DNA of 64,000 nt, taken from Brevundimonas sp. (lineage in GTDB: Bacteria > Pseudomonadota > Alphaproteobacteria > Caulobacterales > Caulobacteraceae). The stretch lies in contig NZ_JACESB010000002.1 in NCBI RefSeq assembly GCF_013912005.1, positions 186,001-250,000 of the forward strand, read 5' to 3'. The position numbers and the translations under genes are program-made. Positions 8,857 through 63,496 of the stretch are shown here, in pieces; the stretch's first letter is position 1, and each line of letters starts with the position of its first letter. A model generated the notes under the pieces. It was given only the letters and a program-made list of their open reading frames with translations. It was not told where the DNA came from and did not search any database.

Positions 8857-9327
8857 ATGCCGAAGATCGACATCGACGCCGCCCCGGTCGGACACGGCAC
8901 GACCTATCCGGAAGAGTTCGCCGGGCCGTGCAAGCCGCGCCGCCGCTGGCGCCTCGGCGACGCCGCCGGTCTGGACCAGTTCGGGGTCAACCTCCTGCGC
9001 CTGCCGGCGGGGGCCTGGTCGAGCCAGCGCCACTGGCACCAGGGCGAGGACGAGTTCGTCTGGGTGCTGTCCGGCGAGGTGGTGCTGGTCGAGGAGGACG
9101 GCGAGACGGTGCTGAAGGCCGGGGACTGCGCCGGCTTCAAGGCCGGCGTCGCCAACGGCCACAAGCTGGAGAACCGCTCCGGGGCGGAGGCGGTGCTGCT
9201 GGAGGTGGGAACCCGGACGCCCGGCGGGGATTCCGGAGACTACCCCGACATCGACATGGTCTTCCGCCCCGGCGGCTACTTCCATCGTGACGGGACGCCC
9301 TGGCCGAAGGTTCCGCGTCGCACGTGA
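8857..9327 (+). CDS. Cupin-domain protein
   Basis: The 156-residue protein has one cupin barrel. The first cupin motif is SQRHWHQGEDEFVWVLSGE, giving metal-binding H59, H61 and a downstream Glu; the second strand set contains AGDCAGFKAGVANGHKLEN. Such proteins can bind a metal and a small ligand, but no activity can be assigned. Its stop overlaps the GTG start of the next gene (GTGA at 9324-9327), so it is probably co-translated with that MFS transporter. It starts divergently from dapE across 47 nt. Confidence 0.82.
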   Translation: MPKIDIDAAPVGHGTTYPEEFAGPCKPRRRWRLGDAAGLDQFGVNLLRLPAGAWSSQRHWHQGEDEFVWVLSGEVVLVEEDGETVLKAGDCAGFKAGVANGHKLENRSGAEAVLLEVGTRTPGGDSGDYPDIDMVFRPGGYFHRDGTPWPKVPRRT

Positions 9328-10610
9328 CCACCGACACCCTCGACACCGCCCCGGCGACGCCGCCGCCGCCGGAGCCGGAGGGGCCGGCCAGCCCGTGGGG
9401 TCTGCGCGACTTCCGCCTGCTCTGGTTCGGTCGGGTGGTCGCTGTGCTCGGCATCCAGATCCAGTCCTCGGCCCTGCTGTGGCAGGTCTACGAGATCGCC
9501 CGGCGCGACCATCCGGTCGAGCAGGCGAGCCTGTACCTCGGCCTCGTCGGCCTGTGCCAGTTCCTGCCGTTGCTGGCCTTCACCCTGCCGGCCGGGGCGA
9601 TGGCCGACCGGCGCGACCGCAAGCGGACCGTGGCGCTCTCGATCGTGGTCGAGGCGATGTGCGCCGGCGGCTTCCTGCTGATGGCCCTGCACGGCTCGCC
9701 GCCGCTGTGGGGGCTGCTGGCGGTGGCGGCCGTGTTCGGCGCGGCGCGGGCCTTCCTCGCCCCGGCCAGCCAGTCCTTCCTGCCCATGGTGGTCGGCCGC
9801 CGCGCCCTGCCGCCGGCGATCGCCGCCCAGTCGATCGCCTTCCAGACCGGCGCGATCGCCGGGCCGGCGCTGGGCGGGGTGATCGTCGGCGTCAACGTCC
9901 CGCTCGCCTACGCCTGCGCCATGGGCCTGTTCCTCACGGGCGTGGCCGCCTTCCTGGCGATCCGCACCAGCGGCAAGCCGCGCAATCCCGAGGGCAAGCA
10001 GCCGCCGATGGAGGCGGTGAAGGAGGGGCTGGCCTACGTCTGGCGGACGAAGATCGTGCTGGGCGCGATCTCGCTCGACCTGGTGGTGGTGCTGCTGGCG
10101 GGGGTGGCGCTGCTCACCCCCATCTTCGCCCGCGACATCCTGCACGTCGGGCCGGAAGGCTTCGGCCTGCTGCGCGCCGCCTTCGGCGTCGGGGCGCTGT
10201 CGATGGCCATCTATCTGAGCCGCTTTCCGATCGTGCGCCACGGCGGACGGTGGATGTTCGCCGCGGTGGCGGTGTTCGGCCTGTGCACCCTGACCTTCGG
10301 CCTGTCGAAGGTGGTGTGGATCTCCGGCCTCGCCCTGCTCATCGGCGGGGCCGCCGACATGATCAGCGTCAACATCCGCCAGACCCTCGTCCAGCTGGCC
10401 ACCCCGGATCACATGCGCGGGCGCGTCAGCTCGGTGTCGATGCTGTTCATCGGCGCCTCGAACGAACTGGGCGAAGCCTATTCCGGGGTGGCGGTGCGGC
10501 TCCTCGGGGCCGTCGGCGCGGCGGTGTTCGGCGGCGCCGGAGCGCTCGCCGCCACCGGCGCCTGGGCGGCGATGTTCCCGGGGCTGCGCAAGGCGGACCG
10601 GCTCTCGTAG
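9324..10610 (+). CDS. MFS transporter, EntS-like
   Basis: The 428-residue major facilitator resembles the enterobactin-exporter/MFS_3 group: a short Pro-rich N-terminus, then WGLRDFRLLWFGRVVAVLGIQIQS at helix 1, and MADRRDRKRTV as the loop 2-3 signature. Late in the protein, DHMRGRVSSVSMLFIGASNELGE is also typical of that group. It is translationally coupled to the cupin gene (4-nt overlap). The substrate is unknown; no siderophore genes are nearby. Its 3' end faces the 7-bp-repeat hairpin at 10617-10687. Confidence 0.85.
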   Translation: MTTDTLDTAPATPPPPEPEGPASPWGLRDFRLLWFGRVVAVLGIQIQSSALLWQVYEIARRDHPVEQASLYLGLVGLCQFLPLLAFTLPAGAMADRRDRKRTVALSIVVEAMCAGGFLLMALHGSPPLWGLLAVAAVFGAARAFLAPASQSFLPMVVGRRALPPAIAAQSIAFQTGAIAGPALGGVIVGVNVPLAYACAMGLFLTGVAAFLAIRTSGKPRNPEGKQPPMEAVKEGLAYVWRTKIVLGAISLDLVVVLLAGVALLTPIFARDILHVGPEGFGLLRAAFGVGALSMAIYLSRFPIVRHGGRWMFAAVAVFGLCTLTFGLSKVVWISGLALLIGGAADMISVNIRQTLVQLATPDHMRGRVSSVSMLFIGASNELGEAYSGVAVRLLGAVGAAVFGGAGALAATGAWAAMFPGLRKADRLS

Positions 10611-10616
10611 GTCCGA

Positions 10617-10687
10617 GGTTCTAGGGGCTAGGGGCTAGGGTCGACCGGCGGCTACTCCTTGGAACCTGGTCCCTGGAACCTGGCCCC
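10617..10687. repeat. Heptamer-array inverted repeat A
   Basis: The gap between the convergent MFS and dcd genes holds two arms with strict 7-bp periodicity. The left arm is GGTTCTA, GGGGCTA, GGGGCTA, GGGTCGA (10617-10644). The right arm is TGGAACC, TGGTCCC, TGGAACC, TGGCCCC (10660-10687). Right-arm units pair with left-arm units, allowing one G-T wobble each, so RNA from either strand can fold into a long hairpin. Position suggests a two-way terminator. Arrays at 26530 and 37321 are a closely related class. Confidence 0.7.
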
Positions 10688-10691
10688 TCTC

Positions 10692-11723
10692 TCACCCCCA
10701 CGGCCGGAAGTGCTTCGACAGCTTCAGCCCCTGCCGCTGGTAGTGGCTGCCGCCCTCGCCATAGAGACGGGTCGGGCGCTCGGTCAGGGGCTCGTAGACC
10801 AGGCGGGCGACGATCTGCCCGTGCTCGAGCAGGAAGGGCGTGTCGTGGGTGCGCACCTCCAGCACGCCCTTGGATCCGGCCCCGTGGGCCTCGTCGGTGC
10901 CGAAGCCGGGATCGAAGAAGCCGGCGTAGTGGACCCGGAACTCGCCCACCGACGGATCGATCGGCGTCATCTCCGCGGCCTGGTCGACCGGGATCTCCAC
11001 GTCGTCCGACGAGGCGAGGATGTAGAACTCGCCCGGGTCGAGGAGGAGTTCGCCGCGGCGCAGCACCTGCGGCTCCCAGAAGTCGCGCGGGTCGTGGCCG
11101 TCGATGCGGTCGAGGTCGACCACGCCGGCATGACGCCGGCCGCGGAAGCCGACCACGCCGCCGTCCCCGCCGGTCAGGTCGACGCCGACCGAGCGGGTCT
11201 CCAGCTTCGGCGGCTCGCCGGCCTTCAGGCGCAGCTGGTTCAGCCGCGTGCCGGGACGGACCAGGATGGAGAAGGTCTGCGGCGCGATCTCCATATACAG
11301 CGGCCCGTCATACCCCTCGTCGACGTCGTCGAAGCTGCCGCCCCGATCGGTGAGCAGGCGCACGAAGACGTCGACCCGCCCGGTCGAGCTCTTCGGATTG
11401 GCGCGGGCGATCAGCCCCTTCGGCAGGCTCAGCCGCTCCTGCAGCCGGGCGATGTAGACGCAGCCCTTCTCCATCACATAGCCGCCCGACAGGTCGATCG
11501 CGTGCATCGCCACGTCGGCGATCCGCTCCTCCACCTGCCGCATCCCGGGCAGGAAGGAGGCGCGCACGCGCCAGGCCCGGTCGGACAGCCGGAGGTCGAG
11601 GCTGGCGGGCTGGACCTGGTCGGGGTCGAACGGAGTCTCGGAGACGATCGCCCCCGTGGCGATCAGGGTCTCGATCGACTGGCAGGGCAGGATGCCGGGA
11701 CGGAGGGATTCGAACGACGTCAT
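10692..11723 (-). CDS. dcd: dCTP deaminase, long alphaproteobacterial form
   Basis: The 343-residue product belongs to the dUTPase/dCTP deaminase superfamily and should make dUTP (or dUMP) from dCTP for thymidylate synthesis. The key motif PKSSTGR lies at 110-116, and QPASLDLRL at 39-47 is the conserved N-terminal strand. At about twice the length of E. coli Dcd, it appears to have two tandem superfamily units, the second around ARTHDTPFLLEHGQIVARL-like sequence near residue 300. A GGAG precedes the ATG. Bifunctional deaminase/dUTPase activity is possible but not shown by sequence. Confidence 0.82.
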   Translation of the reverse strand: MTSFESLRPGILPCQSIETLIATGAIVSETPFDPDQVQPASLDLRLSDRAWRVRASFLPGMRQVEERIADVAMHAIDLSGGYVMEKGCVYIARLQERLSLPKGLIARANPKSSTGRVDVFVRLLTDRGGSFDDVDEGYDGPLYMEIAPQTFSILVRPGTRLNQLRLKAGEPPKLETRSVGVDLTGGDGGVVGFRGRRHAGVVDLDRIDGHDPRDFWEPQVLRRGELLLDPGEFYILASSDDVEIPVDQAAEMTPIDPSVGEFRVHYAGFFDPGFGTDEAHGAGSKGVLEVRTHDTPFLLEHGQIVARLVYEPLTERPTRLYGEGGSHYQRQGLKLSKHFRPWG

Positions 11724-26101: not shown

Positions 26102-26536
26102 ATGGAAACCCCCTCGCTGCATCGCGGCCGGCTGATCGACCACCTGCATCTCGTGGTGCGCGACCTCGCCGCCAGCCGCCGCTTCTACGACGCCGTGCTG
26201 GAGGCGCTGGACGTGCCGCTCGGCGGCGCGGGCGAGAGCTGGTTCTGGGCCGACGAGCTGTTCGTCTCCACCGCCGACAGCGCGGCCGCCCTGGGCCAGC
26301 TCACCGGCCGCTGCCACCTCGCCTTCCAGGCGAAGGACAGGGCCATGGTCGAGGCCTTCCACCGCGCCGGACTGGCCGCCGGCGGCCGCGACAACGGCGC
26401 CCCGGGCGAGCGGCCCTACCACCCCGGCTACTACGCCGCCTTCCTGCTCGATCCCGACGGCAACAACATCGAGGCGGTGTTCCACGGCCCGGCCGAGCGC
26501 TCGGCGGACAGCGTGGAGATCACCTTCGAGGGATGA
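26102..26536 (+). CDS. VOC (glyoxalase/dioxygenase fold) protein
   Basis: The 144-residue protein is a single vicinal-oxygen-chelate unit. H15 in LIDHLHLVVRDLAASRRFYD is the first metal ligand, and FLLDPDGNNIEAVFHG holds the last Glu. Family members include glyoxalases, dioxygenases and antibiotic-binding proteins; no specific activity is readable. The ATG at 26102 follows GGAGAGAG. The stop codon lies inside the first two units of the 7-bp repeat array, so the C-terminus FEG* is set by the repeat. Confidence 0.85.
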   Translation: METPSLHRGRLIDHLHLVVRDLAASRRFYDAVLEALDVPLGGAGESWFWADELFVSTADSAAALGQLTGRCHLAFQAKDRAMVEAFHRAGLAAGGRDNGAPGERPYHPGYYAAFLLDPDGNNIEAVFHGPAERSADSVEITFEG

Positions 26537-26636
26537 GGGATGAGGGAAGAGGGAAGAGGGACGAGGGATGAGCTGGTCAGTGTCGCGGGCGAACTCCGTC
26601 CGCCGTTTCCCATCCTCATCCCTCTTCCCTCATCCC
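26530..26636. repeat. Heptamer-array inverted repeat B
   Basis: Six direct 7-bp units fill 26530-26571: GGGATGA, GGGATGA, GGGAAGA, GGGAAGA, GGGACGA, GGGATGA. After a 44-nt spacer, three complementary units TCATCCC, TCTTCCC, TCATCCC occupy 26616-26636. Both convergent genes end inside the arms: the VOC stop is TGA 26534-26536, and the helicase stop is the TCA of 26616-26618. Unit length 7 is not a multiple of 3, so tandem TGA units stop all three frames within 21 nt. Confidence 0.85.
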
Positions 26637-29489
26637 TCCCAGAAACGCCGCCGTCAGCTCCACCGCCTCGGCCAGCCCCATGCGCTGCACCTCGGTTCCC
26701 GGGGGCAGGCTGGCGAACAGCCGGGTGGGGCAGGCGGCGTCCAGCATGACGAACACGCCCCTGTCGTCGGCCCGGCGGATCAGCCGGCCGAAGGCCTGGG
26801 CCATGCGGGCGCGGGCCAGGGCGTCGTCATAGGCCCGCGCCTGCGGGCCGCCGCCAAAGCGCTCGCGCCGCGCCTTGTGCAGCAGGTCCGGCCGCGGCCA
26901 CGGCACCCGGTCGAAGGCGAGAATGCGCAACGACCGGCCGGGCACGTCGACCCCGTCCCGCACCGCGTCGGTGCCCAGCAGGCAGCTGTCCTGCTCGGCG
27001 CGGAACACGTCGACCAGCGCCCCGACCTCCAGCGGATCGAGGTGCTGGGCGTAGAGGGGGATGCCCGCCTTCGCCAGATCCGGTCCCAGCCGTTCGTAGA
27101 CCGCCTTCAGCCGGCGGATGGCGGTGAACAGGCCCAGCCCTCCGCCGCCGGCGGCGAGGAACAGCTCGCGCATCGCCGCCGCGGTCTGGCGCGGATCGTC
27201 CTTGATCAGGTCGTTGACCACGATGACCCGGCTGTGGGCGGCGTAGTCGAACGGGCTCTCGACCTTCAGGGTCCGGGCCGGCTCGACCAGACGCGCGGCT
27301 CCGGTGCGCAGCCGGGCGAGGTCGAACGGATCGTCCGACAGCGGATCGGACAGGGTGGCCGAGGTGACCAGCACCCCGTGCGCCGGCATCACCACCGCCG
27401 CCTCCAGCGGCACGGTCGGGTCGATCCAGTGCCGGCGCAGGGCGACGTCGTGGATGCGGCCGAAGGCGGCCTCGGCGGACAGCCAGTCGACGAAGTCCGG
27501 GTCCGGCTCGTCGCCGCCGGCGTCGAGCGCCGCCAGCATGGAGCGCCAGCCCGGCAGGGTCATGCGCGCCCGCCGGTCGAGGCCGCGCAGGGCCCCCTCG
27601 ATCCGCGCCCGGGCCGACCCGTCCAGCTCGGCGGCCTCGTCGTCGAGGATGTCCTCCAGATGCCGCGACAGGGCCAGCAGCGGCGCCTCGATCGCCGCCA
27701 GCGCCCGGGCCGCCTCGCGCGCCGCCTCCCGCACCGGCTCGGTCGCCGGACGCAGGGCGCACTCCATGCCGAACTCCACTCCGCTCCCGGAGGCGTTCTC
27801 GCTCGTCCGGGCACGGAGCTGTTCCAGCGCGGCCAGCAGGAAGCGTTCGACCGGACCCACCGGATTGACCTCGCCCGAGGCCGGGGCGATGCGGCCGGAC
27901 ACGCCCTCGCCCGGCAGCTGGGCGGCGGCGCGGACGGCGTCCTGCAGGGCCTTCGAGGCGGCCTCGTTGTCGGCGCACAGGTCGCCGAGGCGCTGCTCCA
28001 GCCCGCGCCCGCGGCGGGCGCGGCCCTCGGGCCCGCGGATCCAGCGGCGCAGCTCGGCCGCCTCCTGTCCGGACAGGCAGGCGGAGAAGGCGCTGTCCGC
28101 GGCGTCGAACAGGTGGTGGCCCTCGTCGAAGACGATGCGCTTCAGCGCCGCCGTCTCGCCGTCCTGCTTCAGGCCGCGCGCCGAGCGGGCGCCGTCGAAG
28201 GCGGCCTGGGTCATCACCAGCGCATGGTTGGCCACCACCAGGTCGGCGCGGCGGCTGGCGCGGACGGTCTTCTCGACGAAACAGGTGCGATAGTGGGGGC
28301 AGGCGGCGTGAACGCACTCGCCGCGCCGGTCGACGAGATTGGCCGGACTGGCCTGATGCGACGGCGGGGTCGCGAACAGGCCGGGCAGCCAGCCGGGATA
28401 GTCGCCGCCGGTCATGTCGCCGTCGCGGCTGTGCAGGGCCCAGCGGCTGGCCAGCGCCATGCCGACGAGGTCGCCGTTCCCCAGCTGGGCCGCCTGCACC
28501 ATCTCCTGCAGGTTCAGCAGGCACAGGTAGTTTTCGCGGCCCTTGCGGACCACGGCCTTGCGCCTGCGCTCCTTCGGATCGGGCCACAGGCTGGCGATCT
28601 CGCGGTCGATCTGGCGCTGCAGGGCGCGGGTATAGGTCGAGACCCAGGCCGCGCCCTGGTTGCGTTCGGCCCACAGGCTGGCGGGCGCCAGATAGCCCAG
28701 GGTCTTGCCGGTGCCGGTCCCCGCCTCGGCCAGCAGCATGCGCGGCCGGCCCTCGTCGTTGCGGGGGGCGAAGGCGTAGGCGGCCTCGGCGGCGTAGTCG
28801 CTCTGGGTCGGCCGGGTCTCGTCGAGGCCGGAGGCCTGCAGCAGCTTCTCCAGCCGGATGCGAGCGCTTTCGGAGTCGACCGGCGCCGAGCCGGCCTCGC
28901 CGCGCGGTGCCTCGTCCTCCCACTCCGGCAGCCGGGCCCAGGCGTCGAGCCCGCTGCCCCGATGGCGCCGCTCGCGCACCGGCTGATGCTGCAGGGCGCC
29001 CAGCACCCGCCAGCCCCAGCTCCATCCGGCCCGGCCCAGGGTTTCCGCGAGGGTCACCGCATCCTCGCGGTGCGGATAGTCCGGCGCCGCCAGCTCCCGC
29101 AGCAGTCCCGCCGCCGCCTCGCGCAGCGCCCCCGCCTGGGCTTCGGCCCCCTTCGGCTCGGCCATGCCCAGCGCCAGCGCCAGACCCGCCGCCGACGGCG
29201 CGCAGAACCGCGCCGGCCGCACGAAGGCGAACAGCTCCAGCACGTCCAGCAGCTGCGGCGATCGCGGCGGCGGTGCGATCCCCAGCCGCCGGGCGGTCAG
29301 GCTGGCGTGGGCGACCATCACCTCGCCGCCGGTGAAAAGTCCTTCCGCCGCGCCCCGCCCGATCCTGCGCGCGCCCTCGGCGTCCGCGACCGCCCCCGCC
29401 CCCGGCGGCACGGCCAGCGCCGGCGGCAGGGCCAGCCAGGGCTCTGCCCCGGTCAGGCCGGCGGGGGAGGGAAGGGTCGAGACGGACAC
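26616..29489 (-). CDS. DinG/XPD-type ATP-dependent DNA helicase
   Basis: The 957-residue superfamily 2 helicase resembles DinG/YoaA. Walker A AEAGTGTGKTLGYLAPA is near residue 255; four cysteines around CVHAACPHYRTCF (~390-402) and further upstream suggest the iron-sulphur cluster; the DEAH-type box is FDEGHHLFD near 453. A late motif DAVRDGVDVPG and QAFGRLIRR complete helicase motifs V-VI. Such enzymes unwind forked DNA and R-loops. A ~230-residue N-terminal region is not assigned to a known fold. The start is a GTG at 29489 with GAGG directly upstream. Its last residues GGMREEG are encoded by the repeat array. Confidence 0.88.
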   Translation of the reverse strand: MSVSTLPSPAGLTGAEPWLALPPALAVPPGAGAVADAEGARRIGRGAAEGLFTGGEVMVAHASLTARRLGIAPPPRSPQLLDVLELFAFVRPARFCAPSAAGLALALGMAEPKGAEAQAGALREAAAGLLRELAAPDYPHREDAVTLAETLGRAGWSWGWRVLGALQHQPVRERRHRGSGLDAWARLPEWEDEAPRGEAGSAPVDSESARIRLEKLLQASGLDETRPTQSDYAAEAAYAFAPRNDEGRPRMLLAEAGTGTGKTLGYLAPASLWAERNQGAAWVSTYTRALQRQIDREIASLWPDPKERRRKAVVRKGRENYLCLLNLQEMVQAAQLGNGDLVGMALASRWALHSRDGDMTGGDYPGWLPGLFATPPSHQASPANLVDRRGECVHAACPHYRTCFVEKTVRASRRADLVVANHALVMTQAAFDGARSARGLKQDGETAALKRIVFDEGHHLFDAADSAFSACLSGQEAAELRRWIRGPEGRARRGRGLEQRLGDLCADNEAASKALQDAVRAAAQLPGEGVSGRIAPASGEVNPVGPVERFLLAALEQLRARTSENASGSGVEFGMECALRPATEPVREAAREAARALAAIEAPLLALSRHLEDILDDEAAELDGSARARIEGALRGLDRRARMTLPGWRSMLAALDAGGDEPDPDFVDWLSAEAAFGRIHDVALRRHWIDPTVPLEAAVVMPAHGVLVTSATLSDPLSDDPFDLARLRTGAARLVEPARTLKVESPFDYAAHSRVIVVNDLIKDDPRQTAAAMRELFLAAGGGGLGLFTAIRRLKAVYERLGPDLAKAGIPLYAQHLDPLEVGALVDVFRAEQDSCLLGTDAVRDGVDVPGRSLRILAFDRVPWPRPDLLHKARRERFGGGPQARAYDDALARARMAQAFGRLIRRADDRGVFVMLDAACPTRLFASLPPGTEVQRMGLAEAVELTAAFLGGMREEG

Positions 29490-35859: not shown

Positions 35860-36801
35860 ATGATACTGACCTGCCCGTCCTGCGCCACCAGCTATTTCGC
35901 GCCCGATGACGCCATCGGCCCGCACGGCCGCACCGTGCGCTGCAAGTCCTGCAAGCACACCTGGCGCGCCAGCCTCGACGAGCCGCTGGAGCTGTCGGCC
36001 ACCGCCGCCGGGGGGCCGGGCGAGCCGCCGGCCCGGGAGGAGCCCGCGCCCGAGAGCCTGGCCGAGACGCCGGCCCCGGAACTGCCCCGCGCCTTCCGCG
36101 CCCGCGCCGAACAGCAGCGCCGCCTGCGCCGCGCCGCCGCGCACGGGGCGGTCTGGGCCGGCATCGCCTCCGGCTTCGCCCTGCTGCTCGCCGCCGCCTG
36201 GCTGTTCCGGGTGGAGGTCGTGGAGCTCGCGCCGCGCACCGCCGCCGCCTACGCCGCCGTCGGCCTGGAGGTGAACCCGACCGGTCTCGACTTCGAGGCG
36301 CTCAGCGCCCGGCCCTTGCCCAGCGATCCCGGGCGCATCCTGGTCTCGGGAGCCCTGCGCAACGTTCGCGACGACGAGCGGGTGGCTCCGCCGGTCCGCG
36401 TGGCCCTGCTCGACAGCCATGGGGCCGAGATCGGCCACGCCCTCGTCCGGATCGACGCCGCCCCGGTGCTGCCCGGCAAGGTCCAGGGCTTCGCGACCAT
36501 CATCCCCGATCCGGGCGCCCGCGCGGCGGGCATCGGCGTCGACTTCGTCCTCTCCGCCGCCGGAGCTGCGCCGGTCGCCCATGCGCCGGCCGCCCGTCCG
36601 CCGGCCTCCCATGCGCCGGCGCATCACGCGCCGCCGGCGGTCCGCCCCCTCCCTGTCGCTTCCGGCGGCGAGGCGGGACTGCGTCCGGCCCTGGCCACGG
36701 ACGCGCCCGGAGCCGCCGGCTTGCGCCCGGTCGACGCCGTTCCGGTGGCGGCGACCCTCGACTCGCACGCGCCGGAGGCGGTATCGCCGGGGCATGGCTG
36801 A
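35860..36801 (+). CDS. MJ0042-type zinc-ribbon membrane protein
   Basis: The 313-residue protein opens with a zinc ribbon of the MJ0042 type: C5-P-S-C8 and C28-K-S-C31. A Pro/Glu-rich spacer, one membrane helix (residues ~95-115) and a DUF3426-like extracytoplasmic part with GALRNVRDDERVAPPVRVALLD follow. The C-terminal ~80 residues are Pro/His/Ala-rich repeats (RPPASHAPAHHAPPA). It is divergent from ftsE, a conserved alphaproteobacterial arrangement, and overlaps the next gene by 8 nt. Function is unknown. Confidence 0.8.
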   Translation: MILTCPSCATSYFAPDDAIGPHGRTVRCKSCKHTWRASLDEPLELSATAAGGPGEPPAREEPAPESLAETPAPELPRAFRARAEQQRRLRRAAAHGAVWAGIASGFALLLAAAWLFRVEVVELAPRTAAAYAAVGLEVNPTGLDFEALSARPLPSDPGRILVSGALRNVRDDERVAPPVRVALLDSHGAEIGHALVRIDAAPVLPGKVQGFATIIPDPGARAAGIGVDFVLSAAGAAPVAHAPAARPPASHAPAHHAPPAVRPLPVASGGEAGLRPALATDAPGAAGLRPVDAVPVAATLDSHAPEAVSPGHG

Positions 36802-37333
36802 CGCGACTCCCGCCCCGACCGTCCTGCTCCCTGAAGCCGAGGTCCGGCGCATCGTCGACGATCTCGCCGCCCGCATCGCCCCGGTCATCGACGACGAGAC
36901 CGTCGCCGCGGTCCTGCTCACCGGCGGCCTGTGGTTCGCCGCCGACCTGACCCGCGCCCTGTCGCGCCACGGTCGCCACGTCCGCTTCGACGCCCTGTGG
37001 CTGGCGTCCTACGGCGACGAGCGGACCAGCCGCGGCCGCATCGACGTCTACGCCGACTTCCAGCGCCCCATCGAGGGCCGCCGTGTGCTGCTCATCGACG
37101 ACGTCTTCGACACCGGCCTGTCGCTGGCGGAGGCGGTGCGCATCGCGAAGGACAAGGGCGCGCGCGAGGTCCTCACCGTCGTCTTCGCCCGCAAGCCGTG
37201 GCCGAAGCCCCGCGCGCCCGAACCCGACTTCGTCGGCTGGGAGGCCCCGGACCGCTTCCTCGTCGGCTACGGCCTGGATCACGCGGGGGCGCTGCGGGGG
37301 CTGCCGGACGTGTGTGCGCTGGATGAGGGATGA
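36794..37333 (+). CDS. Phosphoribosyltransferase, hypoxanthine PRT-like
   Basis: The 179-residue protein has a type I phosphoribosyltransferase fold with the PRPP-binding loop VLLIDDVFDTGLS (98-110) and LLTGGLWFAADL (41-52) as the pyrophosphate loop. It should salvage hypoxanthine or guanine. It overlaps the zinc-ribbon gene by 8 nt, a pairing seen in related genomes. The stop codon lies in the first full unit of the heptamer array, so the C-terminal DEG comes from the repeat. Confidence 0.85.
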   Translation: MADATPAPTVLLPEAEVRRIVDDLAARIAPVIDDETVAAVLLTGGLWFAADLTRALSRHGRHVRFDALWLASYGDERTSRGRIDVYADFQRPIEGRRVLLIDDVFDTGLSLAEAVRIAKDKGAREVLTVVFARKPWPKPRAPEPDFVGWEAPDRFLVGYGLDHAGALRGLPDVCALDEG

Positions 37334-37485
37334 GGGACTAGGGATGAGGGACTAGGGATGAGGGATTGGGGAGAAGAGGGTGCCTGATCGAGCTTCCTGA
37401 TGGTCAGACGGCGAGCACGCCTTCATCCCTCATCCCTCATCCCTCATCCCCAATCCCTCGTCCCTGATCCCCGGCCCCTCCCTCA
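37321..37485. repeat. Heptamer-array inverted repeat C (largest)
   Basis: The left arm, 37321-37375, is a run of 7-bp units: (G)GGATGA, GGGATGA, GGGACTA, GGGATGA, GGGACTA, GGGATGA, GGGATTG, GGGAGAA. After a ~47-nt spacer, the right arm 37423-37478 is TCATCCC four times, CAATCCC, TCGTCCC, TGATCCC and CGGCCCC. The arms are largely complementary and could form a stem of ~50 bp. It separates the convergent phosphoribosyltransferase and lysA genes; the lysA stop is at 37483-37485, just outside the right arm. Confidence 0.88.
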
Positions 37486-38757
37486 CAACCACTCCGCCCG
37501 CGGCTCCCGCGCCCACATCTCCTCGTACGAGGGCCGTCTCCGCACCACCGCCCAACGGTCGCCGTTGACCAGCACCTCGGGGACGAGCGGCCGGGAATTG
37601 TACTCGCTCGACAGCACCGCCCCGTAGGCGCCCGCGCTCATGAAGGCGACCAGGTCGCCGGCCTCCAGCGGCGGCAGCAGGCGGTCGCGGGCGAAAACGT
37701 CGGTGGACTCGCAGATCGGCCCCACCGGATCGTACGGAACCGCCTCGCCCGGCCGCTCGCGCACTGGCACGAGGTCGTGGAAGGCGTCGTACAGGGCCGG
37801 ACGCATCAGGTCGTTCATGCCGGCGTCCAGCACCAGGAAGCGGCGGCCGTCGGCCCGCCGGTTGACCTGGATCACCCGGCTGACCAGCACCCCGGCGTTG
37901 GCGGCGAGCAGCCGGCCCGGCTCGAACGCCGCCTCGACGCCGAGGCCGTCCAGCACCCGGGCGCACATGGCGGCGTAGGCGTCGATCGACGGCGTCTCCG
38001 CCTGGCCGTGGTAGGGCACGCCCAGCCCGCCGCCGAGGTCGAGCCGGGCGACCTCGAAGCCGCGGGCCCGCAGCTCGAGCGTCATCTCCCGCAGGGTGCC
38101 GAACGCCGTCTCCATCGGCGCGAGGTCGAGGATCTGGCTGCCGATGTGGCAGGCGAGCCCCGCCGGCCGCACGTGCGGCGAGGCGGCGGCGCGGGCGTAG
38201 AGGTCGAACGCCTCCTCGATCGGCACCCCGAACTTGTCGGCGGCCCCGCCGGTGGTGATGCGGGCGTGGCCGCCGGCGCCGATCCGCGGATTGACCCGGA
38301 CGGCGATCGTGGCGACCGCTCCCCGCGCCGCGGCGACCGCGATCAGCCGGTCCAGCTCGGCCCCGCTCTCGACGTTGATCTGGCGCACGCCGACCTCGAT
38401 GGCGAAGGCCAGCTCGGCGTCGGTCTTGCCCACGCCTGAGAAGATGATCCGGTCCGCCGGCGCGCCCGCCGCCAGCGCCCGCCGGATCTCGCCCTCCGAC
38501 ACCGTGTCGGCGCCGCAGCCCGCGCGCGCCAGGGTGGCCAGCACCGACAGGTTGCTGTTGGCCTTGACGGCGAAGGCGATCAGGGCGTCGCCCAGCGCGC
38601 TCCGCCGGGCGTCCAGCGCCTGCCGCAACAGGCCGTGGTGCCGTTCCAGGGTGGCGGTGGAATAAACGTAGGCCGGCGTGCCGACCTCGGCCGCGACCGT
38701 TTCCAGCGACACGCCCTCCGCATGCAGGACGCCGTCGATCCGGTGGAAGTGATGCAA
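37483..38757 (-). CDS. lysA: Diaminopimelate decarboxylase
   Basis: The 424-residue fold III PLP enzyme makes L-lysine from meso-diaminopimelate. The PLP lysine is K65 in FAVKANSNL. Other motifs are GCGADTVSEGEIRRALAAG, VRPAGLACHIGSQI, LDLGGGLGVPY and the C-terminal CESTDVFARD, which supplies the active-site Cys. It is third in the run argH-lptM-lysA, a usual alphaproteobacterial order. Confidence 0.95.
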   Translation of the reverse strand: MHHFHRIDGVLHAEGVSLETVAAEVGTPAYVYSTATLERHHGLLRQALDARRSALGDALIAFAVKANSNLSVLATLARAGCGADTVSEGEIRRALAAGAPADRIIFSGVGKTDAELAFAIEVGVRQINVESGAELDRLIAVAAARGAVATIAVRVNPRIGAGGHARITTGGAADKFGVPIEEAFDLYARAAASPHVRPAGLACHIGSQILDLAPMETAFGTLREMTLELRARGFEVARLDLGGGLGVPYHGQAETPSIDAYAAMCARVLDGLGVEAAFEPGRLLAANAGVLVSRVIQVNRRADGRRFLVLDAGMNDLMRPALYDAFHDLVPVRERPGEAVPYDPVGPICESTDVFARDRLLPPLEAGDLVAFMSAGAYGAVLSSEYNSRPLVPEVLVNGDRWAVVRRRPSYEEMWAREPRAEWL

Positions 38758-63416: not shown

Positions 63417-63432
63417 CGGTGGTGGCTGGGGG
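63417..63432 (-). repeat. tRNA-side direct repeat (att-like)
   Basis: The same 16 bp as 61772-61787, here overlapping the last 13 nt of the tRNA-Met gene (63420-63432). A tRNA 3' end is the usual target of tyrosine integrases. Confidence 0.6.
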
Positions 63433-63496
63433 CGGGCTCGAACCGCCGACCTGTGGGTTATGAATCCACCGCTCTAACCAGCTGAGCTACCCAGCC
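63420..63496 (-). tRNA. tRNA-Met (CAT), CCA encoded
   Basis: The 77-nt gene folds as a complete cloverleaf. The acceptor arm GGCTGGG/CCCAGCC gives 7 pairs, the D arm GCTC/GAGC 4, and the T arm GGCGG/CCGCC 5 with loop TTCGAGC. The anticodon CAT is at 63460-63462 in loop TTCATAA. The anticodon stem has one A-C mismatch next to the loop. A discriminator A and CCA are encoded. A paired G1-C72 and no triple G-C in the anticodon stem argue for the elongator, not the initiator; a tRNA-Ile with modified CAT cannot be fully excluded. Confidence 0.93.

Follow-up and report, generated by a model that had tools for sequence, protein, structure and literature searches.

The genes hpt and lysA of Brevundimonas converge on a long inverted hairpin built of seven-base units, which raises the question of what such an element is, how its two arms come to match and what it does at the end of a gene. 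Within the 64-kb stretch of DNA analysed here (the window), repeat and inverted-repeat analysis delimits a G-rich arm of GGGATGA, GGGACTA and GGGATTG units on the plus strand (37321..37372), a spacer forming the loop (37373..37422) and an opposed arm on the minus strand (37423..37478), which reads as TCATCCC units on the plus strand and as GGGATGA, GGGATTG, GGGACGA and GGGATCA on the minus strand. To the left lies a hypoxanthine phosphoribosyltransferase-like gene (hpt, 36794..37333, plus strand; NCBIfam TIGR01203, E 2.4e-32 at 112 bits, where the curated cut-off is 150), to the right the diaminopimelate decarboxylase gene lysA (37483..38757, minus strand; TIGR01048, E 7.4e-131, above its cut-off). 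ComF as an identity of the left gene was dropped after the profile search in favour of the hpt-like assignment. The array fills the gap between both genes: the TGA stop of hpt (37331-37333) falls within it, and the end of lysA is 4-12 nt away, depending on where the arm is cut.

According to TRF, the left arm (approximately 37321-37372) holds 6.6 copies of GGATGAG, and 2.9 copies of the 14-mer AGGGATGAGGGACT are present, while the right arm (37423-37471) holds 7.0 copies of TCATCCC. The initial annotation was right about the seven-base repeat, but its count of about eight units per arm has to be lowered to approximately six to seven. Ungapped pairing between the arms spans 46 nt at 87%, or 57 nt at 77% when extended. 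The two-unit match GGGANNAGGGANNA occurs 15 times in the window compared to 0.15 times (sd 0.41) in 100 dinucleotide shuffles, and the region 37315-37485 folds as RNA with -98.5 kcal/mol on the plus and -101.9 kcal/mol on the minus strand (z = -5.86 and -6.35; 0 of 200 shuffles as good). Based on these matches and the z-scores, a chance origin of the element is excluded. The hairpin described at 37321-37485 is thus real and consists of two opposed (GGGANNA)n arrays with a long stem on either strand. As in canonical intrinsic terminators, a GC-rich stem-loop is found 3' of the stop; a U-tract after the stem is missing, and none is present next to the hairpin within 37200-37600.

Two further arrays are found in the window. 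The second one comprises a G-rich arm on the plus strand (26528..26572), which includes the stop (26534-26536) of a glyoxalase/VOC-family gene (26102..26536, plus strand; Pfam PF00903, E 1.8e-10, above its cut-off), and an opposed arm on the minus strand (26614..26638), which includes the stop (26616-26618) of a DinG/YoaA-like helicase gene (26616..29489, minus strand; best E 2.8e-67, curated cut-offs not reached). With a fold z-score of -4.90 for 26528-26638, the copy previously placed at 26530 is equally real. The third array lies between a gene for an MFS transporter (9324..10610, plus strand) and the dCTP deaminase gene dcd (10692..11723, minus strand), which both end at it. Its arms are composed of GGTTCTA/GGGGCTA units (10617..10640, plus strand) and of TGGAACC/TGGTCCC units (10656..10688, minus strand), with CTAGGGG set against GGTTCCA/GGGACCA. 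This candidate variant at 10617 holds as an inverted heptamer array, but it is diverged, uses other heptamers and folds more weakly (z = -1.74; 7 of 200 shuffles as good). All three arrays have a convergent setting according to our own gene calls; since the gene caller was home-made (trained on GC3), single gene orientations may be wrong. Apart from a tRNA on the minus strand (63423-63496), the window has no Rfam match at gathering scores.

The genome has a size of 2.89 Mb in 42 contigs, with a GC content of 72% in the sampled parts. By their LysA hits, three members of its genus correspond to named genomes, namely B. alba DSM 4736 (G068), Brevundimonas sp. AAP58 (G061) and uncultured Brevundimonas SRR6670122_bin.61 (G018), which assigns it to Brevundimonas. 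It contains 27 + 33 exact four-unit GGGANNA matches at about two dozen places, and 50 + 60 matches if up to three mismatches are allowed, compared to 7 + 11 for a control pattern read backwards; the elements therefore do form a genome-wide family, as had been proposed. Among 61 genomes (this one, 36 of the same genus and 24 of the same order), the exact four-unit pattern is present in 11, ten of which belong to the genus. The separation from CRISPR arrays is borne out by units that run head-to-tail and by the absence of unique spacers. Likewise, the element differs from a usual REP: RAYT (PF01797) was detected in none of 13 Brevundimonas genomes including this one, compared to 5 of the 14 named genomes that served as control, Caulobacter and E. 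coli included, and units and loops vary by locus save for one group with a shared loop.

In a survey of 2,055,204 bases from 11 Brevundimonas genomes, any inverted repeat was collected first and its period measured afterwards. The sample is non-random in that it takes in the window (two of the 24 arrays described below) as well as contigs of three genomes (G000, the genome of the window, G012 and G014) with known GGGANNA arrays. At an arm score of at least 15, 22 of 63 inverted repeats were periodic, 19 with a period of 7 and one each with a period of 14, 9 and 6; at a score of at least 12, 31 of 317 were periodic and 23 of these had period 7. Five of the 11 genomes (G068, G084, G036, G073 and G077) gave no period-7 array at a score of at least 15. 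After adjacent stretches had been joined, 24 arrays of period 7 or 14 could be placed, 14 of them between tandem genes, 9 between convergent genes, one (weak, in G063) between divergent genes and none inside a gene. Relating array positions to gene orientation, a check already named in the initial annotation, gives a non-random placement when intergenic lengths of 111,682 bp (tandem), 38,934 bp (convergent) and 66,328 bp (divergent) are taken into account (chi2 p = 0.0045; p = 0.02 once the two window arrays are left out). Divergent regions are depleted (p = 0.0018), and the convergent excess has p = 0.019 against intergenic base pairs and p = 0.20 against the number of 3' ends. Hence, the notion that all copies reside at convergent junctions applies to the three arrays of the window and fails genome-wide. 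The location at gene 3' ends, by contrast, stands for 23 of the 24 arrays: the nearest stop lies within 33 nt in all 23 non-divergent cases, and 13 of the 14 tandem arrays lie nearer to the stop than to the following called start, with one tie. A wider, pattern-biased set that includes the loci of the genome itself (44 arrays) comprises 22 tandem, 15 convergent, 4 divergent and one intragenic array plus two at contig edges.

The heptamer itself is far from fixed. Across 62 arrays, including own-genome and orthologue loci, the dominant units are GGTGATT, GGTGGTT, GTGATTA, GTGGTTA, GTGGCTA, GTGGCGA, GGGCTTA, GGTTCTA, GGCAGTA, GTGAGTA and the GGGANNA series, with GGGGATT dominating in one array. 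First arms are poor in C (G 795, T 386, A 323, C 92), and G exceeds C in the left arm of 60 of the 62 arrays, the exceptions being the weak G063 array and a run of N. In the genome of the window, 33 + 34 forward matches compare to 0 for the pattern read backwards, which requires about half a unit more and is thus slightly stricter. Of 18 unit types, 13 contain a stop codon, compared to a mean of 8.6 in shuffles, 109 of 5000 of which reached that number; this is a weak signal obtained with a hand-picked list. Two fpg/mutM-like gene ends of the same genome (L042:9958-10031 and L043:691-807, on contigs C23 and C27) are followed by a single G-rich arm in one case and by both arms in the other; these arrays may be half- and full-grown forms.

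How the element changes over time can be followed at orthologous junctions. Orthologues of lysA, dinG and dcd were sought, each in 61 genomes of the genus, and for every gene 30 loci were inspected. With the convergent partner no more than 200 bp away, an inverted heptamer array was detected at 6 of 16 lysA|hpt, 3 of 8 dinG|VOC and 9 of 16 dcd|MFS junctions (6 of 23, 3 of 14 and 9 of 21, respectively, with the partner at any distance in the locus), and these counts are too low because the dcd|MFS array of the window, visible by eye, went undetected itself. At lysA|hpt, the units are GGGATGA in the window and GGTTCTA, GGTTCCA/GGTTTTA, GGTGATT, GTGGCGA or GTGATTA/GTGGCTA in relatives. At dcd|MFS, three genomes (L295, L306 and L311) have a GC-rich, T-tailed hairpin in place of the array. 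Junctions of some relatives carry unrelated palindromes, and at others the stops abut or overlap; the latter is the case with nothing in between for 6 of the 16 lysA|hpt pairs that are no more than 200 bp apart, two of the six scanned negative gaps being mis-scans. Long non-heptamer palindromes (CCCTCTCCC...GGGAGAGGG type and others) were also seen 3' of the same genes in L180, L183, L185, L268, L289 and L301. Between the genome of the window and its sister G010, the length of the gap at dinG|VOC differs by two units, or 14 nt. Identity between these two genomes amounts to 89% for LysA, 97% for DinG and 98% for Dcd, and the lower value for LysA makes an allele exchange at lysA possible. As the hairpin of some relatives at the same place has another word in both arms, comparison of these sequences suggests that the inherited thing is an architecture rather than a sequence.

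Joint change of the arms is also apparent within the genome of the window. With arms defined by GGGRNNR runs alone, at loci fetched for their GGGANNA arrays, both arms of a locus share unit variants with a mean cosine of 0.724 compared to 0.574 (sd 0.035) in permutations (0 of 10,000; 20 rows), and with ATGA left out the values are 0.441 and 0.188 (sd 0.067; 8 of 10,000; 15 rows). Four of originally 24 rows had been removed, namely the second pieces of split arrays at L040 18835, L041 515 and L209 14831 and a spurious one at L045 859; before removal, the 19 rows without ATGA gave 0.403 against 0.148 (0 of 10,000). Unit-order concordance and a within- versus between-locus comparison on arms cut by complementarity were discarded as circular, since complementarity had served to excise those arms. 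An excess of G·U wobble pairs over A·C mismatches is absent from tandem arrays (10 versus 16; 15 versus 7 in convergent ones), which counts against tight selection at the RNA level. Growth by unit slippage, as envisaged in the initial annotation, agrees with whole-unit changes such as the 14 nt at dinG|VOC, but simple slippage leaves the joint change of both arms unexplained.

Such a change is also found inside a gene. One array of the genome lies in frame in thiC (contig C31:4742-4861, L045:4742-4861), within the match to the ThiC radical-SAM domain. At this site, five of ten genomes have an array-free 33-nt stretch (G009, G012, G025, G032 and G068), another stretch, of 90 nt, is present in G010, and four carry an in-frame inverted heptamer array (G000, G021, G014 and G006, where thiC is truncated by the contig end). 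The arms represent three unit types, GGGATGA/GGGAAGA in G000, GGGTCGA in G021 and GGGTGTG-like units in G014 and G006, with a period-7 identity of 0.79-1.0. A 29-nt loop core, chosen by eye, shows 23-25 identities out of 29 over the four genomes. Because this core is alike in all four, the inserts look homologous; judging from these alignments, the arms look to have been rewritten since, or imported by allele exchange from lineages in which they already were. In G000, two GGGAAGA units stand where GGGATGA would give an in-frame TGA. Between filled and empty sites, which have diverged, no target duplication is apparent by eye. A single C-rich heptamer array, PSSLIPDPSSLP, is located in frame in the linker of mutL (L032:393-427, corresponding to G000 contig C2:393-427); its slippage could alter MutL, a mismatch-repair protein. 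A second group with a conserved loop was recognized from 13 matches, five of them the seeds of the model, to a core of approximately 65 nt around GGCGGCGGAAGGGCGGCGCGG. By eye, 12 of these have recognizable arms of AGTGGCT, AGTGATT or GGTGATT type and one is degenerate. Members were found at several loci and in several genomes (L296, L297, L293, L313, L173, L186, L304, L309 and stretches of G012), and by its appearance the core is itself a dispersed element. Among the arrays of the genome of the window, loops gave no match to each other at E 0.001.

Taken together, we favour, with a probability of about 0.6, a self-matching palindrome whose arms change by rewriting in steps of seven bases and by copying from one arm to the other, which is tolerated at gene ends and whose RNA hairpin probably serves as a terminator or 3'-end stabilizer. 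The element consists of two oppositely oriented arrays of seven-base units, separated by a loop of roughly 10-100 nt, with the G-rich arm first. Its arms would be rewritten at the DNA level by replication slippage in steps of 7 nt together with fold-back or template-switch copying from arm to arm. A DNA-level process is indicated because both arms have new words around a kept loop even within a coding gene, and under such a process location would reflect tolerance: purifying selection would limit the element to tolerant sites such as gene ends, protein linkers and loops. After transcription, the hairpin, whose arms measure approximately 16-50 nt, might end the mRNA or protect its 3' end and thereby replace an intrinsic terminator or REP-type stabilizer, a step we hold with less certainty. 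The G-first polarity might stem from one-way fold-back copying or from selection against C-rich RNA exposed to Rho, both of which are guesses. Alternatively, whole-allele horizontal exchange could move arms between species.

If instead the RNA function itself were selected, the elements would be a dedicated bidirectional family of terminators or mRNA ends with arm complementarity kept by compensatory selection. The arrays follow directly after stops, the folds at 37321 (both strands) and 26528 are very stable, and a T-tailed hairpin takes the place of the array at dcd|MFS in other genomes. At convergent junctions of at least 25 bp, T-tailed terminators were found at 0 of 9 with an array and at 60 of 129 without one (p = 0.005; leaving out the two arrays of the window gives 0 of 7 and p = 0.018), the lengths of array-bearing and array-free junctions being unmatched. 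In Xanthomonas citri, moreover, transcript starts and stops are reported in the excerpted text of Rehm et al. to be more common at G4-capable heptamer repeats than at control repeats (PMC4692102). No corresponding exclusion exists at tandem junctions (1 of 14 with an array, 97 of 688 without; p = 0.7; pooled p = 0.10), the 37321 hairpin has no U-tract, a wobble excess is missing, and the six lysA|hpt junctions with abutting or overlapping stops manage with nothing in between. Furthermore, the thiC and mutL copies are unable to terminate their own genes, and an in-frame copy as in thiC implies that the element need not be a terminator. The originally suggested role as terminator or mRNA end is therefore backed by convergent junctions and opposed by tandem ones and by thiC, and a family dedicated to it appears unlikely, though it deserves serious consideration.

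Two other readings carry less weight. REP- or MITE-like mobile elements copied by a transposase would account for the 65-nt loop core with its 13 matches at several loci and in several genomes, and for filled and empty thiC sites; the lack of RAYT in all 13 Brevundimonas genomes, the lack of mutual loop matches in the genome of the window, a thiC site with no apparent target duplication and a unit that varies by locus render this improbable. A role of the G-rich arm as a DNA or RNA G-quadruplex, which is how Rehm et al. interpret the repeats of Xanthomonas and Nostoc, would fit four GGGANNA units, which match G3N4, and the leading position of that arm. Oligonucleotides of the Xanthomonas repeats form G-quadruplexes in vitro, with the function left open in the part of that paper available as excerpts (PMC4692102). 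However, GG- or single-G units such as GGTGATT, GGTTCTA and GTGATTA make inverted period-7 hairpins at the same junctions, so that we regard a G-quadruplex element as very improbable.

Beyond the genus, the inverted GGGANNA pattern was found at no fewer than 116 loci of a species-level genome collection. Among the matches listed, arms were resolved in 89 of 116, and 71 had a score of at least 15 and a period-7 identity of at least 0.7; these 71 include loci titled Acidobacteria, Chloroflexi, Planctomycetota, Armatimonadetes, Gemmatimonadaceae, Cyanobacteria, Clostridiales, Selenomonadaceae, Saprospiraceae and Rhodanobacter. Among the matches listed, 63 of the 71 (77 of the 89) have an arm adjoined by the stop of an ORF of at least 120 aa, compared to 348 of 1643 random positions. 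Within 398 genomes of Pseudomonadota, the pattern is rare and occurs in four (the one studied here, two others from the genus and, from the same class, G211); counted by period, 7 is found in four genomes, 6 in two and 8 in none, and the pattern read backwards in none of the 398. In viral contigs, the number of stretches was 38 for period 7, 15 for period 6 and 18 for period 8, with 0 of reversed polarity versus the 38 forward ones. The viral period-6 stretches are mostly two-unit palindromes, and some of period 8 are real arrays (L418-L435); since inverted period-8 arrays occur there, 7 is a favoured but not the sole step. An ORF stop (at least 100 aa) adjoins 30 of the 32 resolved period-7 loci among the 38 found (control 190 of 588), 5 of 13 period-6 loci (control 53 of 252) and 11 of 18 period-8 loci (control 89 of 324). 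Two single observations concern other lineages: a long one-strand (GGGAATA)n array in another family of the same order (G040:C5:137253-137347) and a mixed inverted heptamer array (GGGAATAGGGAGTAGTCAGTAGTGAGTGGTGAATAG) in the same class outside Brevundimonas (G211:C26:30933-31022). We put somewhat short of even odds the tentative proposal that bacteria harbour a widespread class of self-rewriting hairpins. Such hairpins would pass on an architecture of seven-base step, inversion and leading G-rich arm, would change their word through repeated one-way overwriting of arms by fold-back copying, and would be tolerated at gene ends and within protein linkers, with frequent use as mRNA terminus.

Several known systems resemble these arrays in part. 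The Rickettsia palindromic elements are palindromes that sit in frame inside genes and have a fixed sequence, whereas arm sequence is not conserved in Brevundimonas. Cyanobacterial STRR are short tandem heptanucleotides, e.g. CCCCAGT. The closest parallel is provided by the heptameric repeats of Xanthomonas (GGGAATC) and Nostoc (GGGGAYT), which, according to excerpts of the original report, mostly lie 0-50 bp past the stop on the coding strand, are scarce between divergent genes, form 70 (Xcc) and 75 (Xac) inverted pairs, differ in length and sequence among relatives and were also counted within genes (Rehm et al. 2015, PMC4692102). The Brevundimonas arrays share the G-rich head-to-tail units of 7 nt, the proximity to stops, the inverted pairs and the scarcity at divergent junctions (1 of 24). 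In contrast to one unit type per organism, however, many heptamers occur in one genus; the dominant units differ from GGGNATC and GGGGAYT, with GGGGATT dominating in a single array, and the four GGG runs that make the Xanthomonas and Nostoc repeats G4-capable are possible for GGGANNA arrays but not for GGTGATT, GTGATTA or GGTTCTA. They are further distinguished by orthologous sites at which the units of both arms differ, by arms that have changed around a homologous loop, and by copies in frame. In the P6b region of the cyanobacterial tRNA-Leu intron, degenerate heptanucleotide repeats of variable copy number pair into a hairpin (excerpted text of PMC3488679); this is one intronic locus, as opposed to arrays dispersed at gene ends, and the window has no Rfam intron match. 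For REP/BIME with RAYT, excerpts describe extragenic palindromes with hypothesized roles in termination and mRNA stability (PMC3733652, PMC2817692), unlike which the present arms are 7-nt arrays rather than a fixed palindrome of 20-40 bp and come with no RAYT in 13 genomes. Template switching makes and mends reverse-complement hairpin arms, described in the excerpted text for RNA genes (Monttinen and Loytynoja 2022, PMC8794818) and extended to repeat arrays and a step of 7 nt by our proposal. The available excerpts also describe TAACTGA heptamer repeats in Beggiatoaceae, most of which precede genes and which include one inverted repeat genome-wide (PMC4679880), and GGGACCG elements between and within genes of Geobacter metallireducens (PMC2700814); both are heptanucleotide families like the present one, but form direct arrays. 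Excerpts of the CC-licensed PMC literature yielded no description of unit turnover around a kept loop or of the Brevundimonas heptamers. Relative to the literature found, the rewriting of arms, the copy in frame and so wide a distribution would be new.

Covariation of stem arms is normally taken as proof of selection on RNA structure. Since both arms differ together here even in a protein-coding gene, a mutational process may write covariation as well. If true, the arrays would offer a natural system for studying the origin of long perfect stems, and they may help to explain why heptanucleotide repeats are so common in bacteria. They would also be a source of new mRNA ends and of in-frame linkers.
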